The notes beneath the pieces were generated by a model that saw only the letters and a program-made list of their open reading frames with translations, did not search any database and had not been told where the DNA came from. Shown piece by piece: positions 22,453-33,524 of a stretch of 33,524 bases of DNA. This DNA is from a virus: the IMG/VR virus record IMGVR_UViG_3300028840_004237, positions 1 to 33,524 of that record. One strand, written 5' to 3'. Position 1 is the stretch's first letter; the number at the start of each line of letters is the position of its first letter. Position numbers and translations under genes: made by a program.

Positions 22453-22480
22453 TTGACATGTATGGATTAAGTGCTATTAT
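22453..22480 (+). promoter_or_regulatory. strong rightward extended -10 promoter
   Basis: Perfect TTGACA (22453-22458), 16-base spacer, TATTAT (22475-22480) preceded by the extended -10 element TG (22472-22473). The expected start is near 22487, just before a 7-bp inverted repeat, ATGATGC (22489-22495) and GCATCAT (22508-22514), that would form a 5'-end hairpin or an operator. It drives the accessory/LRR region. Confidence 0.75.
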
Positions 22481-22538: not shown

Positions 22539-22766
22539 ATGAGCAATTTAAAACCTGACTTGCGCAGAGTGCGTTACAGAATTAGCTCTAGCGCGAAAGA
22601 TTTTTCCCACCGTGGACTTTTCCATGAGTTTATATCTCAAACAAATAGATATGGAGATCCTATCATCGGCTATTCAACTGCAAATGAGATTTTTGCGCTC
22701 ATTGAAGATATTGATAGTGGAGAATGCAAATTGATTCGTATAGATAATTTTAAATTTACCAACTAA
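22539..22766 (+). CDS. small accessory protein, MSNLKPDLRRVR family
   Basis: 75 residues, unrecognised. Residues 1-12 (MSNLKPDLRRVR) are shared with the 55-residue protein at 23743-23910, whose remainder is different. The body contains a compact beta-type stretch (YGDPIIGYSTANEIFALIED) and ends FKFTN. It is the first gene behind the strong rightward promoter with an AAGAGGA ribosome site, so it should be abundant early after infection or in lysogeny. Confidence 0.6.
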   Translation: MSNLKPDLRRVRYRISSSAKDFSHRGLFHEFISQTNRYGDPIIGYSTANEIFALIEDIDSGECKLIRIDNFKFTN

Positions 22767-22778
22767 GAGGATATTACT

Positions 22779-23099
22779 ATGAGCACAAAAAATATTTCAG
22801 GCGCATCAGAGGATGATTTCATTCGGTGCGAATTAATAATTAGAAAAGATCAAAATAATATGGAAATACAAAAGATTATAACCAATACAATAAAAGACGT
22901 AATAAATTTATGTTTAACCGAGCAATATAAATATAACTGCTTGCCAGAAATTATAGAAACAACATTTATTATAAGTGACTCCGATCCCGTTCCATATATT
23001 CGAGATTTAAAATTTTCTAAAAATTCAATATCTCAAATTGAAGAACATTGCGTATCGGCTGTAAATTCTATTCTTAATTCAATTTTCAAAGAGGACTAA
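22779..23099 (+). CDS. hypothetical accessory protein, 106 aa
   Basis: Unrecognised, predicted mixed alpha/beta (CELIIRKDQNNMEIQKIITN, then FIISDSDPVPYIRDLKFSKN). AGAGGA precedes the ATG. It lies 12 bases after the previous gene. A 57-base piece of its coding sequence (22981-23037) is repeated at 23604-23660, where it forms the foreign 3' end of the first LRR gene in another reading frame. Confidence 0.55.
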   Translation: MSTKNISGASEDDFIRCELIIRKDQNNMEIQKIITNTIKDVINLCLTEQYKYNCLPEIIETTFIISDSDPVPYIRDLKFSKNSISQIEEHCVSAVNSILNSIFKED

Positions 23100-23150: not shown

Positions 23151-23633
23151 ATGAACATCGACGAACTGAAAGACATATTGAATAGTGATTTAGCACAACT
23201 TAATTTAGCATGTGAAGATATCGGCGATGAAGGCGCGAAAGCCTTAGCCGATGCGTTGAAAGTTAATGATACTTTGAAAAGGCTTTATTTAGATAATAAT
23301 TCAATCGGAGCAGAAGGGGCGCAAGCATTAGCCGAGGCGTTGAAAGTTAATAAAACTTTGGAAATGCTTGATTTAGATAATAATTCAATAGGCGATGAAG
23401 GAGCGCAAGCATTCGCAGAAGCTTTGAAAGTAAATAAGACTTTGGAAAGGCTTCATTTAAGAGATAATTCAATCGGCGATGAAGGAGGGCAAGCCATAGC
23501 AGAAGCTTTGAAAGTTAATGATACTTTAGAGCTGCTTTATTTATTTGATAATTCAATCGGAGCTGAAGGCGCGCAAGCATTAGCCGAGGCTTTGAAAGTT
23601 AATCCGATCCCGTTCAATATATTCGAGATTTAA
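23151..23633 (+). CDS. LRR cassette 1 (ribonuclease-inhibitor type), truncated chimera
   Basis: 160 residues. An N-terminal cap (MNIDELKDILNSDLAQLNLA) is followed by about four 28-residue repeats of the form LKVNxTLxxLxLxxNSIGxE then GAxAxAEA, the ribonuclease-inhibitor class of LRR (alternating strand and helix, horseshoe). The last repeat is cut after LKVN and continues as PIPFNIFEI, encoded by a copy of sequence from the 22779 gene in a different frame. The C-terminal cap seen in other copies (DFKFSD-RV-C) is missing. It is presumably a protein-binding scaffold. There is no signal peptide or membrane segment, so it would act in the cytoplasm. Confidence 0.75.
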   Translation: MNIDELKDILNSDLAQLNLACEDIGDEGAKALADALKVNDTLKRLYLDNNSIGAEGAQALAEALKVNKTLEMLDLDNNSIGDEGAQAFAEALKVNKTLERLHLRDNSIGDEGGQAIAEALKVNDTLELLYLFDNSIGAEGAQALAEALKVNPIPFNIFEI

Positions 23634-23660
23634 AATTTTCTAAAAATTCAATTTCTCAAA
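23604..23660 (+). repeat. 57-bp copy of 22981-23037 at the end of LRR 1
   Basis: Starts CCGATCCCGTTC and ends CAATTTCTCAAA. It differs from 22981-23037 at two positions. It replaces the end of LRR cassette 1, marking a recombination junction at 23603/23604. Confidence 0.9.
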
Positions 23661-23742
23661 ATACAGGAGGGCAAAACAGCGGTTATTAGATGATATTATC
23701 ATTAAAATTTTTTTAATTATTACTAAATAAGAGGATATTACT

Positions 23743-23910
23743 ATGAGCAATTTAAAACCTGACTTGCGCAGAGTGCGCACAAAAGATTGTCAAAATTACT
23801 ATTATTTTCATCATGTTGTTGCATTTGGAGATTTACTTATGGTTATCTGTGAAGATGATAACGGATTTTTGCACAGTCTGCCAATGTCTGCAATTCAATT
23901 TATTTCTTAG
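23743..23910 (+). CDS. small accessory protein, MSNLKPDLRRVR family (second copy)
   Basis: 55 residues. The first 12 residues and their DNA are the same as in the 22539 gene. From residue 13 the protein is different (TKDCQNYYYFHHVVAFGDLL then MVICEDDNGFLHSLPMSAIQ). It has a good ribosome site, AAGAGGATATTACT. This is a second example in this region of a conserved 5' end joined to a different 3' part. Function unknown. Confidence 0.6.
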   Translation: MSNLKPDLRRVRTKDCQNYYYFHHVVAFGDLLMVICEDDNGFLHSLPMSAIQFIS

Positions 23911-23921
23911 GAGGATATAGT

Positions 23922-24143
23922 ATGCTTGATTTGGACAAACTTAAAAGATATGAAGAAGTTGGAGAGAAAAGCATTCGAATAATGAGAGATTTAGAGAGGG
24001 CTTTTTTTATGCAAATGATTGATGCTCCAACATGTAATCTTTGTATTGATTTTAAGGAAACGATAAAAGAGATTTACGGGACTCTCGAGGAACTAGCTCT
24101 TATTTACAATAACGATAATGAATTAGAGAATGCACCTTTTTGA
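23922..24143 (+). CDS. small helical protein, 73 aa
   Basis: Unrecognised acidic helical protein (MLDLDKLKRYEEVGEKSIRI) with two cysteines in APTCNLCIDF, a CxxC pair that could bind metal or form a disulfide. GGAGG lies upstream of the ATG. A 20-base internal segment (24064-24083, coding KEIYGT) recurs at the 3' end of LRR cassette 2 (24924-24943), where the following 61 bases have been lost. Confidence 0.55.
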   Translation: MLDLDKLKRYEEVGEKSIRIMRDLERAFFMQMIDAPTCNLCIDFKETIKEIYGTLEELALIYNNDNELENAPF

Positions 24144-24160
24144 AATAGTTTAATATTTTA

Positions 24161-24211
24161 CACTACCACCGACGCGCCCTTCGGGGCGCATTTTAACAAG
24201 AGGACATTATT
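24161..24211 (+). repeat. 51-bp LRR cassette leader with UUCG hairpin (three copies)
   Basis: A 51-base leader precedes the ATG of LRR 2 (24161-24211), LRR 3 (24960-25010) and the LRR pseudogene (25726-25776). Each has a perfect 6-bp stem, GCGCCC-TTCG-GGGCGC, closed by a UUCG tetraloop (24174-24189, 24973-24988, 25739-25754), then ATTTTAAC and the ribosome site AAGAGGA. A degenerate version precedes LRR 4 near 26383-26420. The hairpin with a short T run may be a weak terminator or an mRNA-stabilising element. Confidence 0.85.
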
Positions 24212-24952
24212 ATGGACACAGACGAATTGAAAAGAGTATTACAAAGCGGAGACGACTATATTGATTTATCATCTGAAGATATCGGAGATGACGAATCGAA
24301 GATTATAGCAGAAGCGTTGAAAGTAAATAAGACTTTGGAATGGCTTGATTTATGGAGTAATTCAATTGGCGATGAAGGCGCGCAAGCCATAGCAGAATCT
24401 TTGAAAGTAAATAAGACTTTGGAAAGGCTTAATTTAGATAATAATTCAATCGGAGCTGCTGGAGCGAAAGCATTCGCAGAAGCTCTGAAAGTTAATGATA
24501 CTTTGGAAAGGCTTGATTTATGGATTAATTCAATTGGCGATGAAGGCGCGCAAGCCATAGCAGAATCTTTGAAAGTAAATAAGACTTTGGAATGGCTTGA
24601 TTTAAGAGATAATTCAATCGGCGATGAAGGAGCGAAAGCCATAGCAGAAGCTTTGAAAGTTAATCAGACTTTGGAAAGGCTTGATTTAGATAATAATTCA
24701 ATACGCGCTGATGGAGCTAAGATTATAGCAGAAGCTTTGAAAGTTAATCAGACTTTGCGACAGCTTTATTTGTGGAGTAATTCAATTGGCGATGAAGGCG
24801 CGCAAGCCATAGCAGAATCTTTGAAAGTAAATAAGACTTTGGAAAGGCTTAATTTAGATAATAATTCAATCGGAGCTGCTGGAGCGAAAGCATTCGCAGA
24901 AGCTTTGAAAGTTAATAATACTTTAAAAGAGATTTACGGGACTATAGTTTAA
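24212..24952 (+). CDS. LRR cassette 2 (ribonuclease-inhibitor type), fused 3' end
   Basis: 246 residues. The N-cap MDTDELKRVLQSGDDYIDLS then SEDIGDDESKIIAEA is shared by cassettes 2-4 and the pseudogene. Seven full 28-residue LRRs follow. Repeats 1-2 and 6-7 are encoded by 132 identical bases (24353-24484 and 24773-24904) exactly 420 bases, or five units, apart, so part of the gene arose by recent duplication. The last repeat stops at LKVNNTLKEIYGTIV, the end being a fragment of a gene like the one at 23922. The C-cap is absent. Probable cytoplasmic binding protein of unknown ligand. Confidence 0.8.
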   Translation: MDTDELKRVLQSGDDYIDLSSEDIGDDESKIIAEALKVNKTLEWLDLWSNSIGDEGAQAIAESLKVNKTLERLNLDNNSIGAAGAKAFAEALKVNDTLERLDLWINSIGDEGAQAIAESLKVNKTLEWLDLRDNSIGDEGAKAIAEALKVNQTLERLDLDNNSIRADGAKIIAEALKVNQTLRQLYLWSNSIGDEGAQAIAESLKVNKTLERLNLDNNSIGAAGAKAFAEALKVNNTLKEIYGTIV

Positions 24953-25010
24953 TATTTTACACTACCACCGACGCGCCCTTCGGGGCGCATTTTAACAAGA
25001 GGACATTATT

Positions 25011-25709
25011 ATGGACACAGACGAATTGAAAATAGTATTACAAAGCGGAGACGTCTATATTGATTTATCATCTGAAGATATAGGAAATGACAGATCGAAG
25101 ACTATAGCAGAAGGTTTGAAAGTAAATAAGACTTTGGAAAGCCTTGATTTAGATAATAATTCAATACGCGCTGATGGAGCTAAGATTATAGCAGAAGGTT
25201 TGAAAGTAAATAAGACTTTGGAAAGGCTTCATTTAGATACTAATTCAATAGGCGCTGCTGGAGCGAAAGCATTCGCAGAAGCTTTGAAAGTAAATAAAAC
25301 TTTGGAAAGGCTTTATTTATATTCAAATTCAATAGGAGCTGAAGGAGCGCAAGCATTAGCCGATGCGTTGAAAGTTAATAAAACTTTGGAATGGCTTCTT
25401 TTAAGGTGGAATTCAATTGGCGATGAAGGAGCGCAAGCCATAGCAGAAGCATTGAAAGTTAATCAGACTTTGGAATGGCTTAATTTAAGAGATAATTCAA
25501 TCGGCGATGAAGGAGCGAAAGCCATAGCAGAATCTTTGAAAGTAAATAATACTTTGGAAATGCTTGATTTAGATAATAATTCAATCGGAGTTGACGGCGC
25601 TAAAGCATTCGCAAAAGCTTTGACAGTTAATCAGACTTTGCGCAGGCTTGATTTAAGATATAATAAAATAAAAGAATTTAAATTTTCCGACGAGAGGGTT
25701 ATTTGCTGA
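25011..25709 (+). CDS. LRR cassette 3 (ribonuclease-inhibitor type), intact
   Basis: 232 residues. N-cap, six full 28-residue repeats, a seventh repeat (LTVNQTLRRLDLRYNKI) and a C-cap KEFKFSDERVIC. The architecture matches cassette 4 in length exactly. Residues that differ between repeats fall mainly at the xx-L-x-L-xx positions of the strand (RLHLDT, RLYLYS, WLLLRW, WLNLRD, MLDLDN), the concave ligand face in this fold, while the helical half is nearly constant. No signal peptide, TM segment or enzymatic domain. The leader is identical to that of cassette 2. Confidence 0.85.
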   Translation: MDTDELKIVLQSGDVYIDLSSEDIGNDRSKTIAEGLKVNKTLESLDLDNNSIRADGAKIIAEGLKVNKTLERLHLDTNSIGAAGAKAFAEALKVNKTLERLYLYSNSIGAEGAQALADALKVNKTLEWLLLRWNSIGDEGAQAIAEALKVNQTLEWLNLRDNSIGDEGAKAIAESLKVNNTLEMLDLDNNSIGVDGAKAFAKALTVNQTLRRLDLRYNKIKEFKFSDERVIC

Positions 25710-25776
25710 AATAGATTAAGATTTCCACTACCACCGACGCGCCCTTCGGGGCGCATTTTAACAAGAGGACATTATT

Positions 25777-25964
25777 ATGGACATAGACGAATTGAAAAGA
25801 GTATTACAAAGCGGAGACGTCTATATTGATTTATCATCTGAAGATATCGGAGATGACGAATCGAAGATTATAGCCGATGCGTTGAAAGTTAATGATACTT
25901 TGGAAATCTTGATTTAGATAATAATTCAATCGGAGCAGAAGGCGCGCAAGCATTAGCCGAGGCT
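25777..25964 (+). pseudogene. LRR cassette remnant, frameshifted and truncated
   Basis: It starts as the other cassettes (MDIDELKRVLQSGDVYIDLS) with the same leader, but in the first repeat TTGGAAATCTTGATTTAG lacks one G relative to the intact copies (GGAAATGCTTG), causing a stop at 25915-25917 after 46 residues. In the corrected frame the repeat resumes as DNNSIGAEGAQALAEA and ends abruptly at 25964, where a ribosome site and a six-codon frame of another gene begin. It is a decayed copy that could still donate sequence by recombination. Confidence 0.8.
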
Positions 25965-26037
25965 AAGAGGCTTATTTTATGATAAACAGTGATTTGTAAT
26001 AAAAATGCTCCACTGGAACGCCGGAATGAAATTTTTA

Positions 26038-26178
26038 TTTTTATAATAATAACAACAGGTTATTGTCGATAGGAACGTTATCGGAACGGTATCGGAACGA
26101 ATTTTTTGTTTTTATAATAATAACAACAGGTTATTGTCGATAGGAACGTTATCGGAACGGTATCGGAACGAATTTTTT
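26038..26178 (+). repeat. 71-bp tandem repeat with 11-bp GGAACG iterons
   Basis: Two copies of a 70-base unit at a 71-base period (26038-26107 and 26109-26178). Each has an AT-rich half (TTTTTATAATAATAAC), an inverted repeat AATAAC-AACAG-GTTATT, and three GGAACG motifs spaced 11 bases apart (26072, 26083, 26094 and 26143, 26154, 26165). A further GGAACG lies at 26015. The spacing puts all sites on one face of the helix. This is the usual design of an iteron-type replication origin or a cooperative operator. It precedes the ribosome site of the 26193 gene. No ORF explains it. Confidence 0.85.
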
Positions 26179-26192
26179 AAGAGGATTATTTT

Positions 26193-26372
26193 ATGACAAC
26201 TGTTACTCTTACCTGCACGTTAAACATAAAAGAAGGAGATGAAGAAAAATTAAATCTTTTAATAAAAGAAACAAAAAATGAAATGTTAGATTTAATTAAG
26301 TTGCAAAGATACAGCAGTAATATTGATGTGTCTTTTAATTTAATAGTGAATGGAGAACAAATTTTACTGTGA
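26193..26372 (+). CDS. small hypothetical protein, 59 aa
   Basis: 59 residues (MTTVTLTCTLNIKEGDEEKL then NLLIKETKNEMLDLIKLQRY), a beta strand, two helices and a final strand pair (IDVSFNLIVNGEQILL). Not recognised. The size would fit an antitoxin or a small DNA-binding protein such as an iteron binder, but nothing specific supports that. AAGAGGA is the ribosome site, and the iteron repeat ends 15 bases upstream of its ATG. Confidence 0.55.
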   Translation: MTTVTLTCTLNIKEGDEEKLNLLIKETKNEMLDLIKLQRYSSNIDVSFNLIVNGEQILL

Positions 26373-26420
26373 TTTAACTACTGTACCCTACGGGGCGCAT
26401 TTTAAAAAGAGGACATTATT

Positions 26421-27119
26421 ATGGACATAGACGAATTGAAAAGAGTATTACAAAGCGGAGACGACTATATTGATTTATCATCTGAAGATATCGGAGATGA
26501 CGAATCGAAGATTATAGCAGAAGCGTTGAAAGTTAATCAGACTCTTAAAATGCTTCATTTATATTCAAATTCAATAGGCGATGAAGGCGCGCAAGCATTA
26601 GCCGATGCGTTGAAAGTTAATCAGACTTTGGAATGGCTTCATTTATGGAATAATTCAATTGGCGATGAAGGAGCGCAAGCATTAGCCGATGCGTTGAAAG
26701 TTAATAAAACTTTGGAAAGGCTTTATTTAGATAATAATTCAATCGGAGCAGAAGGGGCGCAAGCATTAGCCGAGGCGTTGAAAGTTAATAAAACTTTGGA
26801 ACGGATTGATTTATGGAATAATTCAATCGGAAACGAAGGCGCAAAAGCATTAGCCGATGCGTTGAAAGTTAATAATACTTTGGAACGGATTGATTTATGG
26901 AATAATTCAATCGGAAACGAAGGCGCAAAAGCATTAGCAGAATCTTTGAAAGTTAATCAGACTTTGGAATGGCTTGATTTATCGCGTAATTCAATCGGAG
27001 ATGAAGGGGCGAAAGCTTTAGCAAACGCTTTGACAGTTAATCAGACTTTGGAAAGGCTTACTTTATGGGATAATTCAATAGGAGATTTTAAATTTTCAGA
27101 CGATAGGGTTTTTTGCTGA
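26421..27119 (+). CDS. LRR cassette 4 (ribonuclease-inhibitor type), intact
   Basis: 232 residues with the same plan as cassette 3: N-cap, six 28-residue repeats, a final LTVNQTLERLTLWDNSIG and C-cap DFKFSDDRVFC. Repeats 4 and 5 are almost identical (ERIDLWNNSIGNEGAKALA), indicating recent duplication of one unit. Strand-face residues differ from cassette 3 (MLHLYS, WLHLWN, RLYLDN, RIDLWN, WLDLSR, RLTLWD). The leader hairpin is degraded (ACCCTACGGGGCGC). Likely a soluble binding protein. Confidence 0.85.
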   Translation: MDIDELKRVLQSGDDYIDLSSEDIGDDESKIIAEALKVNQTLKMLHLYSNSIGDEGAQALADALKVNQTLEWLHLWNNSIGDEGAQALADALKVNKTLERLYLDNNSIGAEGAQALAEALKVNKTLERIDLWNNSIGNEGAKALADALKVNNTLERIDLWNNSIGNEGAKALAESLKVNQTLEWLDLSRNSIGDEGAKALANALTVNQTLERLTLWDNSIGDFKFSDDRVFC

Positions 27120-27250: not shown

Positions 27251-27381
27251 TGAACACCGTTGAACAATTATTTAAACAACATTTTGAAGAGTCAGCGCGA
27301 AAAGATGATAAAGATGAATATGCTTGGCTTGAGCGCACGGCTAAAAATTTAGCGGAAGAAAAAGATGATGAAGTTAGCTAG
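27250..27381 (+). CDS. small charged helical protein, 43 aa
   Basis: 43 residues (MNTVEQLFKQHFEESARKDD then KDEYAWLERTAKNLAEEKDD), very charged and probably helical. It is coupled to the membrane microprotein by a TAATG overlap, and its end overlaps the Rrf2-like gene by 17 bases. It also carries the ribosome site for that gene (GGAAGAAAAAG). Function unknown; a partner or antitoxin of the upstream membrane peptide is a guess based only on gene order. Confidence 0.45.
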   Translation: MNTVEQLFKQHFEESARKDDKDEYAWLERTAKNLAEEKDDEVS

Positions 27382-27754
27382 TAAAGAGACGTATGCAATA
27401 TTATCACTAATCTATATTTATTATATTAATAAAAAAAATGAAGGCTATTGGATAAGATTATTAGATATTGCTTTAACGTTAAAGGTTTCTGTATCTTACC
27501 TTGAACAAATATTCTCAATTCTTAAAGAGCAAGGATTAGTAAAAGGAAAAAAAGGCAGAAAAGGCGGTTATAAATTAAACAAAAATATTAGTGAAATAAA
27601 AATATCAGATGTGTTTAAATTATTTAATCAAAAAATAACATTTAAAACCGAAACTGAAAAAGCCATTTTAACTTTTTTTGACATTCAAACAAAAAAATTT
27701 TTTAGTAAATATCACATTGGTGATATTTGCAATTATATAGAGAATTTACGCTGA
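27365..27754 (+). CDS. Rrf2-family winged-helix regulator
   Basis: 129 residues. KLASKETYAILSLIYIYYIN (3-22) is the family N-terminal helix, SVSYLEQIFSILKEQGLVKG (42-61) is the recognition helix, and KKGRKGGYKL (62-71) is the wing, the signature of Rrf2/IscR/NsrR proteins. The three cysteines that bind a [2Fe-2S] cluster in IscR and NsrR (after the wing) are absent; only one Cys is near the C-terminus. It is thus a cluster-less member, perhaps sensing something else or acting as a constitutive phage repressor. It is coupled to the zinc-ribbon gene by TGATG. Confidence 0.8.
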   Translation: MMKLASKETYAILSLIYIYYINKKNEGYWIRLLDIALTLKVSVSYLEQIFSILKEQGLVKGKKGRKGGYKLNKNISEIKISDVFKLFNQKITFKTETEKAILTFFDIQTKKFFSKYHIGDICNYIENLR

Positions 27755-28998: not shown

Positions 28999-29193
28999 AT
29001 GGACTTAATGGCAAAAATTAATCAAATAACTAGCGATAATCTTATAGAAGACGCTAAATTTATCGAGGAATGTTTGTTTTATATGAAGCATAAAAACGTC
29101 TCTAAGGGCTTTAAAATCGCTTTAATGTATCAAGCAGAGGACTTTATAAAAAATTTATCTGCTTTTATTATTAATGAGAGGAAAGAATCATGA
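28999..29193 (+). CDS. small helical protein, 64 aa
   Basis: 64 residues (MDLMAKINQITSDNLIEDAK then FIEECLFYMKHKNVSKGFKI), all-helical in appearance. The start at 28999 is fixed by AAGGAGGAT 7 bases upstream, among the strongest ribosome sites in the window. Its stop overlaps the ATG of the NTG-repeat gene (ATGA), so the two are translationally coupled and may act together. Family not recognised. Confidence 0.65.
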   Translation: MDLMAKINQITSDNLIEDAKFIEECLFYMKHKNVSKGFKIALMYQAEDFIKNLSAFIINERKES

Positions 29194-29972
29194 AAGATAT
29201 TATAGAAATTGATGGGGTTAAGTATAAACGATTAGATGAATGTAATGAGAATATCAGCAACAATAACACCGGAAGCTTGAACACCGGCGAGTGGAACACC
29301 GGCGACAGTAATACCGGCGACAGTAACACCGGAGACAAGAACACCGGCGACAGTAACACCGGCGACTGGAACACCGGCGACAGTAACACCGGCTCCTGGA
29401 ACACCGGCGACTGGAACACCGGAAACAGGAACACCCGCGACTGGAACACCGGCGACAGTAACACGGGCCACAGGAACACCGGCGACTTTAACACTGGCTA
29501 CTGGAACACCGGCGACTGGAACACCGGCTACAAGAACACCGGCGACTGGAACACCGGCGACAGTAACACGGGCCACAGGAACACCGGCTACTGGAACACC
29601 GGCTACTGGAACACCGCAAATTACCACACAGGCTTTCTAAACACAGAAGATGCTAAATTATGTTATATTTTTGATGAACTTTCTCCTATAGAAATTATAA
29701 AAGATTTTTCATTTCCAGATTATTTCTATTTCGATCTTACTGAATGGATTAGCGAAGAAGACATGACAGAGGAAGAAAAAGGAGCACATCCAACGTATAA
29801 AACGACGGGGGGATATTTGAAAGCGTACGACTACAAAGAAGCGTGGCGAAAGAGTTGGGACGAAGCAGCATTAGAAGATAAAAAGAAAACACTTACAATT
29901 CCAAATTGGAATAATGAGAAGTTTAAGCAAATATCAGGTATAGATGTTGAAAAGGAGTTAAAATTAAACTAA
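29190..29972 (+). CDS. NTG-repeat (pentapeptide-like) protein
   Basis: 260 residues. An N-terminal strand pair (MKDIIEIDGVKYKRLDECNE) is followed by about 24 pentapeptides NTGxx (residues about 26-150; x mostly DW, DS, YW, HR), then a C-terminal globular domain (DFSFPDYFYFDLTEWISEED, TTGGYLKAYDYKEAWRKSW, LTIPNWNNEKFKQISGI). The repeat probably folds as a beta-helix with the two variable residues exposed. Similar NTG-repeat proteins with this C-terminal domain occur in other phages, role unknown. The repeat DNA is 15-bp periodic and GC-rich in an AT-rich genome. A second copy spans the contig ends. Confidence 0.8.
   Translation: MKDIIEIDGVKYKRLDECNENISNNNTGSLNTGEWNTGDSNTGDSNTGDKNTGDSNTGDWNTGDSNTGSWNTGDWNTGNRNTRDWNTGDSNTGHRNTGDFNTGYWNTGDWNTGYKNTGDWNTGDSNTGHRNTGYWNTGYWNTANYHTGFLNTEDAKLCYIFDELSPIEIIKDFSFPDYFYFDLTEWISEEDMTEEEKGAHPTYKTTGGYLKAYDYKEAWRKSWDEAALEDKKKTLTIPNWNNEKFKQISGIDVEKELKLN
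29265..29637 (+). repeat. GC-rich 15-bp tandem repeat array
   Basis: About 24 copies of AACACCGGCGACNNN-type units encode the NTGxx pentapeptides. Codons AAC, ACC and GGC dominate, against the AT-rich codon use elsewhere. The reverse frames are also open because of the period and are not genes. The array at 33415-33524 is of the same type. Confidence 0.9.
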
Positions 29973-30141: not shown

Positions 30142-30336
30142 ATGAACAACGATGTTACTGAAAATTTTTTACTTGAACTTAAAGAAAAGGAAATACCAGC
30201 GGATATCTTCTTATTATCAGGCATAAGGCTTCAAGGTAAAATTACAGCATTTGATGACCAATCGCTTTCAATTTCTGGTCAGCAGTCATTGATTGTTTTT
30301 ATAAGTGCAATAGCAACAATAGTTCCGATGTGGTAA
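30142..30336 (+). CDS. hfq: Hfq-like RNA chaperone (Sm fold)
   Basis: 64 residues aligning without gaps to the Sm core of E. coli Hfq: N-terminal helix ENFLLELKEKEIPADIFLLS, Sm1 SGIRLQGKITAFDD (residues 26-39, Hfq NGIKLQGQIESFDQ), Sm2 FISAIATIVP (53-62, Hfq YKHAISTVVP). Hfq hexamers pair small RNAs with mRNAs. Residues for uridine binding on the proximal face (Hfq Lys56, His57) are Ile54 and Ser55 here, and the rim arginines (16, 17, 19) are Lys14, Glu15 and Glu17. Distal-face Gly29, Gln33 and Thr61 are kept, and Tyr25 is Phe. There is no C-terminal tail. AAGAG precedes the start, and a folded RNA lies 31 bases upstream. Confidence 0.8.
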   Translation: MNNDVTENFLLELKEKEIPADIFLLSGIRLQGKITAFDDQSLSISGQQSLIVFISAIATIVPMW

Positions 30337-32376: not shown

Positions 32377-32688
32377 TTATTCTCCAAGAGCTATTTTTAA
32401 AAAATCTTTTGCTGATAATGTAATAAGCCATTTTTTCCTTTTTTTCCTAAATGCAACAATAGGAATTTTATCTCCACAATCATTACAAGCTTGTTCGTAA
32501 AATTTATACGGATTTAATGTTTCCGTAAATTTAATTTCACAATGGAATGGAAGATCCCATATAATATCTGGACTGTCTTTTGTTCCTTTGAATTGTTGTC
32601 CTCTTTGTGCATTTATACCATAATCTTTACAAAGATTTACAAAATCTAGTTCACCCCTTTTTCCTTTCTGTTTAGAATTTATTGGCAT
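32377..32688 (-). CDS. PD-(D/E)XK nuclease, Holliday-junction-resolvase-like
   Basis: 103 residues. GKRGELDFVNLCKDYG (9-24) with Glu13, DSPDII (38-43) with Asp41, and CEIKF (50-54) with Glu51 and Lys53 form the E-(x)n-PD-(x)n-ExK active site. IPIVAFRKKRKKWLITL is the usual final strand region of small phage resolvase-like nucleases and Hjc-type enzymes. It probably resolves branched DNA before packaging or processes recombination intermediates. It is the only recombination-type enzyme seen, which is notable beside the highly recombined LRR genes. AGGAGA is the ribosome site. Confidence 0.75.
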   Translation of the reverse strand: MPINSKQKGKRGELDFVNLCKDYGINAQRGQQFKGTKDSPDIIWDLPFHCEIKFTETLNPYKFYEQACNDCGDKIPIVAFRKKRKKWLITLSAKDFLKIALGE

Positions 32689-33268: not shown

Positions 33269-33312
33269 AGCGGACATTATTTTATTGTCCTTTTTTTAAT
33301 GTCCGCTTTTTT
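33269..33312 (+). terminator. strong intrinsic terminator with alternative hairpin
   Basis: AGCGGACATT (33269-33278) pairs with AATGTCCGCT (33298-33307), 10 bp, followed by six T ending at 33312. The same left arm (GGACA) can instead pair with TGTCC (33286-33290), which is followed by seven T, so two mutually exclusive terminators share one arm. Confidence 0.85.
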
Positions 33313-33341
33313 ATTTGTTTACTTTTATGAGAGGAAGTATT

Positions 33342-33524
33342 ATGACAGAAAGTAATATTATTGAACTAAACGGAAAAAAATACAAGCTTGTTGAAATTGA
33401 GGAATGCACGACCACCGGCGACAGGAACACCGGCTTCTGGAACACCGGCGACTGGAACACCGGCAACAGTAATACCGGCGACAGGAACACCGGCGACAGG
33501 AACACCGGCGACAGGAACACCGGC
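33342..33524 (+). CDS. NTG-repeat protein, N-terminal part (runs off the window)
   Basis: 61 codons to the end of the sequence, still open. MTESNIIELNGKKYKLVEIE parallels the N-terminus of the complete NTG protein (MKDIIEIDGVKYKRLDE) and is followed by NTGxx pentapeptides (FW, DW, NS, DR). GAGAGGAAG is the ribosome site, and the terminator at 33269-33312 insulates it from upstream transcription. The missing part very probably contains more repeats joined to the C-terminal domain found at 1-353. Confidence 0.85.
   Translation, partial: MTESNIIELNGKKYKLVEIEECTTTGDRNTGFWNTGDWNTGNSNTGDRNTGDRNTGDRNTG

Follow-up and report, generated by a model that had tools for sequence, protein, structure and literature searches.

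The window analyzed here, the whole of IMG/VR virus record IMGVR_UViG_3300028840_004237 (33,524 bases), encodes a P22-like portal, a major head protein and a terminase on its minus strand, and adjoining the terminase on the plus strand is a tandem array of leucine-rich repeat (LRR) genes. Four open LRR genes (A, B, C and E) and one broken copy are present at the coordinates given for them in a preliminary description of this DNA. The genes match Pfam LRR_6 with E values of 1e-29 to 2.5e-41 and carry the 28-residue L-x-x-L-x-L-x-x-N-x-I repeat with a helical second half that marks the ribonuclease-inhibitor (RI)-type class of LRRs. Exchange of repeat units within this genome is strongly supported by the comparison of their sequences. 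The features of the locus are as follows.

22453..22480, plus strand: promoter-like site with an extended -10 (11/12 consensus match, a sequence match only), ahead of the plus-strand gene run that includes the LRR genes
22779..23099, plus strand: small gene without a Pfam match; part of it is found again as the 3' end of LRR gene A
23151..23633, plus strand: LRR gene A, with an N-cap and 4 full units; its 3' end is fused to a duplicate of part of the gene at 22779-23099
23922..24143, plus strand: small gene without a Pfam match; LRR gene B carries its tail and spacer again at the 3' end
24170..24211, plus strand: gene B leader, with a GCGCCC-TTCG-GGGCGC hairpin and an AAGAGGA ribosome-binding site
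24212..24952, plus strand: LRR gene B, with an N-cap and 7 units; its 3' end runs into a copy of the tail of the small gene at 23922-24143
24969-25010, plus strand: gene C leader copy, a repeat of the gene B leader
25011..25709, plus strand: LRR gene C, with an N-cap, 6 full units and a C-cap
25735-25778, plus strand: leader copy ahead of the broken LRR copy, a repeat of the gene B leader
about 25779-25985, plus strand: broken LRR copy, truncated and with a frameshift, that retains an N-cap and a portion of one unit
26379-26420, plus strand: gene E leader, a decayed repeat of the gene B leader
26421..27119, plus strand: LRR gene E, with an N-cap, 6 full units (units 4 and 5 a tandem near-duplicate) and a C-cap, modeled as an alpha/beta solenoid

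Together the genes hold 23 complete 84-bp (28-residue) units (4 in A, 7 in B, 6 in C and 6 in E), and C-terminal half-units are also found in genes C and E. The units had been described as often identical in DNA, but all 23 are distinct; two units are on average 80% identical, and exact repeats reach 132 bp at most. This identity, a DNA-level figure, compares with a cut-off of >85% over at least 100 residues for repeats of high internal conservation. Nor is the helical half nearly constant, as had been stated, since positions 13, 17, 19, 21, 22 and 27 vary there, with silent diversity as high as elsewhere. The wide variation reported for the x positions was, however, confirmed, as the four codon positions that rank highest in amino-acid entropy across the full units are exactly positions 3, 5, 7 and 8 of L-x-x-L-x-L-x-x-N. 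The proportion of nonsynonymous differences (pN) is 0.444 at these positions and 0.108 elsewhere, against an overall synonymous proportion (pS) of 0.339, and a pN as high is reached by only 7 of the 20,475 possible sets of four positions. After Jukes-Cantor correction, the pairwise dN/dS is 1.49 at the x positions versus 0.26 elsewhere, so the variation is not evenly spread, and by this pairwise method the array has the variable binding-face positions with dN/dS above 1 that characterize concertedly evolving repeats. The uncorrected x-position ratio stays at or above 1.18 when any one gene is dropped, and a bootstrap over units gave 1.05 to 1.59, an interval to be used as a guide only since related units are taken as independent. 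In the framework strand, pN is 0.022 while pS is 0.270; with pN so far below pS and four frames open, the protein structure is therefore under selection.

The RI-type fold that the preliminary description assigned to these proteins was upheld by a structure model. The gene E product, aligned with the other three LRR proteins, was predicted with a mean predicted local distance difference test score (pLDDT) of 96.1 and a predicted template modeling score (pTM) of 0.91, and the regular alternation of strands and helices gives the predicted model the form of an alpha/beta horseshoe. Unit positions 3 to 7 coincide with the strands of the first units (residues 44-48, 72-76 and 100-104 of E), so that x positions 3, 5 and 7 sit in strands of the model; in the RI-type LRR fold it is established that the x positions of the strands line the concave face. 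The best match in the PDB was the NOD2 LRR domain (template modeling score of 0.94); ribonuclease inhibitors bound to ribonucleases were also among the top matches, and the best bacterial ones were RipG4 and LegL1 in complex with RavJ. On the strength of this model the LRR proteins are predicted to be RI-type solenoids. No signal sequence was evident by eye in them and no other domain, which is why we regard them as probably cytosolic.

The comparison of units between genes is what points to exchange. Of the 123 bases of the N-cap, 3 (2.4%) distinguish B from E and 9 distinguish B from C, whereas units at the same position in B and E differ at 17 to 20 of 84 bases (about 22%). Across genes, units at the same position differ at a mean of 17.1 bases and all other pairs at a mean of 16.9, and the nearest relative of most units is a unit at another position. 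The closest pairs are A1/E3, with one difference, B5/C1, with four, and B4/C5, with five. The pairwise homoplasy index (PHI) test rejects clonal descent by site (P < 0.0005) and also with each codon treated as one character (P = 0.0015). The distances between strand blocks and those between helix blocks are uncorrelated (r = 0.01), which points to exchange of segments shorter than a unit: the strand blocks of A2 and C6 are identical although their helix blocks differ at 10 of 48 bases, and the helix blocks of B1 and B6 are identical although their strand blocks differ at 6 of 30. Repeat number and order also differ between these paralogues of one genome.

Rearrangement is visible at the level of whole genes as well. 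The 3' end of gene A is 94% identical over 65 bases to a segment of the gene at 22779-23099, that of gene B is a shortened copy of the tail of the gene at 23922-24143, and gene B contains a 132-bp exact internal duplication (at 24353 and 24773). The claim that N-cap and leaders are shared by the LRR genes holds for B, C and E, whose caps are close, and for the hairpin leader, which is common to B, C, the broken copy and, in decayed form, E only. It fails for gene A, whose cap differs from the others at 38 to 43 of 123 bases and whose different leader is shared with a gene upstream. Folding of the leader hairpin gave z scores of about -2.9 for three copies and -0.97 for the copy before E; though strongly folding, the hairpins were not flagged in a terminator scan, because their T run is short. 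Promoter-like sites such as the one at 22453..22480 are not in excess across the region as a whole. Between the broken copy and gene E lies a 71-bp direct repeat in two tandem copies (window 26022-26163). Upstream, a gene start encoding SNLKPDLRRVR and its leader occur twice (window 22539-22766 and about 23744-23911), followed by coding sequence that is otherwise different, a further sign of cassette fusion in the region.

Searches with the LRR genes found only one relative, IMGVR_UViG_3300017963_000729, which is also the only close one by terminase; apart from this sister contig, terminase and portal comparisons gave distant matches only, and no relative was detectable by tblastn among the GenBank phages of the collection. 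The sister contig matches window 64-24475 at every base and breaks off within gene B, as expected of an assembly at a repeat, and being identical over the whole overlap it was rejected as an independent allele. Further LRR-bearing virus contigs were found with degenerate DNA patterns, and judged by these sequences similar tandem LRR genes recur in two other, unrelated phage contigs, L058 and L057, in both of which the PHI test is also significant. In L058 (7183-13137), four tandem LRR genes are flanked on one side by an exonuclease VIII-like gene and on the other by a gene that reads as annealase-like, though neither Pfam nor PHROGs names it, and a phage lysozyme is nearby; a related annealase-like gene occurs in 39 other phage contigs, in none of whose fetched flanks were LRR units found. 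L057 has two clear LRR genes and one diverged one near replication initiator and SSB genes and also encodes DUF4116 repeats, and a search with its LRR gene returned no close relatives beyond L057 itself. The terminase of another contig, L106, is 50% identical to that of L057, and its LRR gene is cut by the contig end, while L054 has one LRR gene, among tail genes. Besides the LRR genes, the only clear gene common to L058 and the window is a PDDEXK_15-like nuclease, in two copies in L058 (4129-4527 and 4696-5088) and one in the window (32377-32688), with 40 to 45% identity.

Other genes of the window deserve brief mention. Just 3' of the LRR genes lies an Rrf2-family regulator (PF02082, E = 4e-18; 27365-27754, plus strand), and a small gene at 30142-30336 (plus strand) matches Hfq (Pfam PF17209, E = 1.2e-11), indicating a phage-encoded Hfq-like RNA chaperone. 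An NTG-type pentapeptide-repeat gene (PF01469) is found at 29190-29972 (plus strand). The record ends (33311-33524 and 1-353) resemble two parts of a second copy of this gene type, and since they look like halves of one copy, the genome may close there, with the assembly broken at the repeat.

In lamprey variable lymphocyte receptors, LRR units serve as exchangeable cassettes and the concave face is variable. The likeness drawn earlier to these receptors is only a loose one: the phage has four complete open genes and one broken copy rather than an incomplete germline gene with donor cassettes, and we know of no somatic assembly machinery of the lamprey kind for the phage array. The repeats (WD, ANK and TPR) of fungal NOD-like receptors (NLRs) are a closer analogue, with high internal conservation, length polymorphism and a hypervariable concave binding face, although they lie within eukaryotic NLR receptors in which LRR motifs were not found (PMC4986451). 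RI-type LRR domains (RNH1 and the LRRs of NOD2 and NLRP proteins) have the same 28-residue unit, alpha/beta solenoid and ligand surface on the concave strands, but the phage LRRs are free-standing proteins with no NLR core, encoded by the phage as tandem paralogues. Chromosomal LRR arrays of Rickettsiales belong to the same 28-residue class, vary at the same positions and have in some cases significant PHI values, but they are mostly longer single genes of about 300 to >1000 residues, whereas the phage genes are short and in tandem. LegL1 of Legionella, a metaeffector acting on RavJ (4XA9), has a similar fold, stands alone as an LRR protein and blocks its partner enzyme by arching over the active site; the portion of the literature on it used here presents a single chromosomal gene and describes no tandem variants (PMC5199130).

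An origin through a diversity-generating retroelement was considered and rejected. No RVT_1 match was found in the window or in the records of L058, L057 and L054, which may be fragments, and the lack of a reverse transcriptase makes such an element unlikely. A-containing codons beside the variable ones (AAT, TTA and TCA) are also nearly or fully invariant, in a comparison that included no search for a template repeat.

We give about even odds to the interpretation that the array encodes tandem RI-type LRR binders, acting as inhibitors or decoys, that are diversified by recombination and block a protein partner with the concave face. Whole-gene duplication would first have multiplied an LRR cassette on a P22-like phage, and recombination between near-identical 84-bp units would then have rearranged their order, number and halves. 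The structural frame would have been retained through selection, or at least tolerance, while the residues of the concave face stayed free to change. By analogy with LegL1 and RavJ, the proteins most probably bind another protein over this face and block it, with exchange supplying new faces so that a set of variants could cover a variable partner. We infer, weakly, that a partner in the bacterial cell, such as a defense protein or a competing element, is slightly likelier than a eukaryotic one, each falling somewhat short of an even chance. In L058 and L057 the LRR genes lie among genes for recombination and replication, a setting that suggests that they are expressed early and act within the bacterial cell. 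A eukaryotic target is suggested instead by the way the LRR class is spread among taxa, by the phage-borne GogB and by the APSE phage LRR gene.

Several observations weigh against the interpretation as diversified binders. In the chromosomal control, made up of Rickettsiales arrays with enough units, the x positions are again generally the most variable, and the ratio of x-site pN to overall pS is mostly about 1 to 2. Face-focused variation thus belongs to the LRR class and by itself shows no phage arms race, and selection of that kind is inseparable from a class-wide relaxed constraint. Variation at exposed positions is found in almost every LRR protein, the kinship among units is ignored by the bootstrap, and recombination may be a passive result of the repeats. 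No second phage with a different version of the array was found in any collection searched. Of the earlier proposal that the phage keeps binding proteins that change by unit shuffling, the RI-type fold, the focus of variation on the face and the exchange between units within the genome have held up, but the binding-face profile is not special to the phage. The adaptive and functional reading of the array is nevertheless plausible.

A different function is possible, though we think it distinctly less probable than not: the genes could be lysogenic-conversion effectors of a phage with an intracellular or protist-associated host, whose proteins reach the eukaryotic cell and whose faces vary against eukaryotic targets, like GogB, the APSE LRR gene and ankyphage proteins. 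This would suit the distribution of the LRR class, which is common in Rickettsiales (79 of 217 genomes), occurs in 18 of 289 genomes of Alphaproteobacteria, mostly of 1.1 to 2.6 Mb, and has plasmid matches in Ca. Megaera and Legionella lytica only; the absence of matches in 198 Spirochaetota genomes points the same way but comes without a positive control. A distant relative of the terminase lies in a Rickettsiaceae genome, and the DUF4116 repeats of L057 also fit. Phages are known to carry such genes, as GogB is a phage-encoded effector (PMC3386239) and the P22-like APSE phages of Hamiltonella have a large LRR candidate toxin in a symbiont setting, although the latter is one protein of 1285 residues without small shuffled cassettes and is likened here by description, not sequence (PMC13137986). 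No integrase was noticed in the window, however, which weakens the case for a benefit to a lysogen; the LRR genes of L058 and L057, moreover, sit among recombination and replication genes.

Passive repeat dynamics, in which a captured LRR gene expands, recombines and decays via short direct repeats while structurally unconstrained x positions drift free of any selected binding, seem improbable to us. The broken copy, the chimeric 3' ends, the repeat-rich pentapeptide genes elsewhere in the genome and the same position profile in unrelated chromosomal arrays would all fit such selfish behavior. It is harder to reconcile with four open frames under framework constraint, with an x-position dN/dS above 1 and with the recurrence of LRR arrays in unrelated phages. 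That the array is in part an artefact, made by a short-read assembler joining near-identical repeats of several strains or copies, is very unlikely. A 132-bp exact duplication exists and the sister contig ends within this duplicated stretch of gene B, but both records agree base for base across 24.4 kb, unit junctions lie in open frames, no exact repeat exceeds 132 bp, and distinct flanking units fix most of the order.

Returning to recombination-diversified binders, it would be a long but conceivable step to propose that unrelated phages of host-associated bacteria keep such arrays in their early regions as an adaptive repertoire, which would generate new concave faces without a dedicated mutator, as a phage counterpart to receptor diversification. 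Retroelement mutagenesis is known to vary the receptor-binding tips of phages. Recombination among the units of a set of soluble LRR binders would diversify binding by another route, one that recurs in unrelated phages. The proteins are small and, in prediction, well folded and are hence amenable to pull-down. If their targets are bacterial defense proteins, the array would be a broad and evolvable counter-defense, and if they are eukaryotic, the LRR proteins would be symbiosis factors supplied by a phage.
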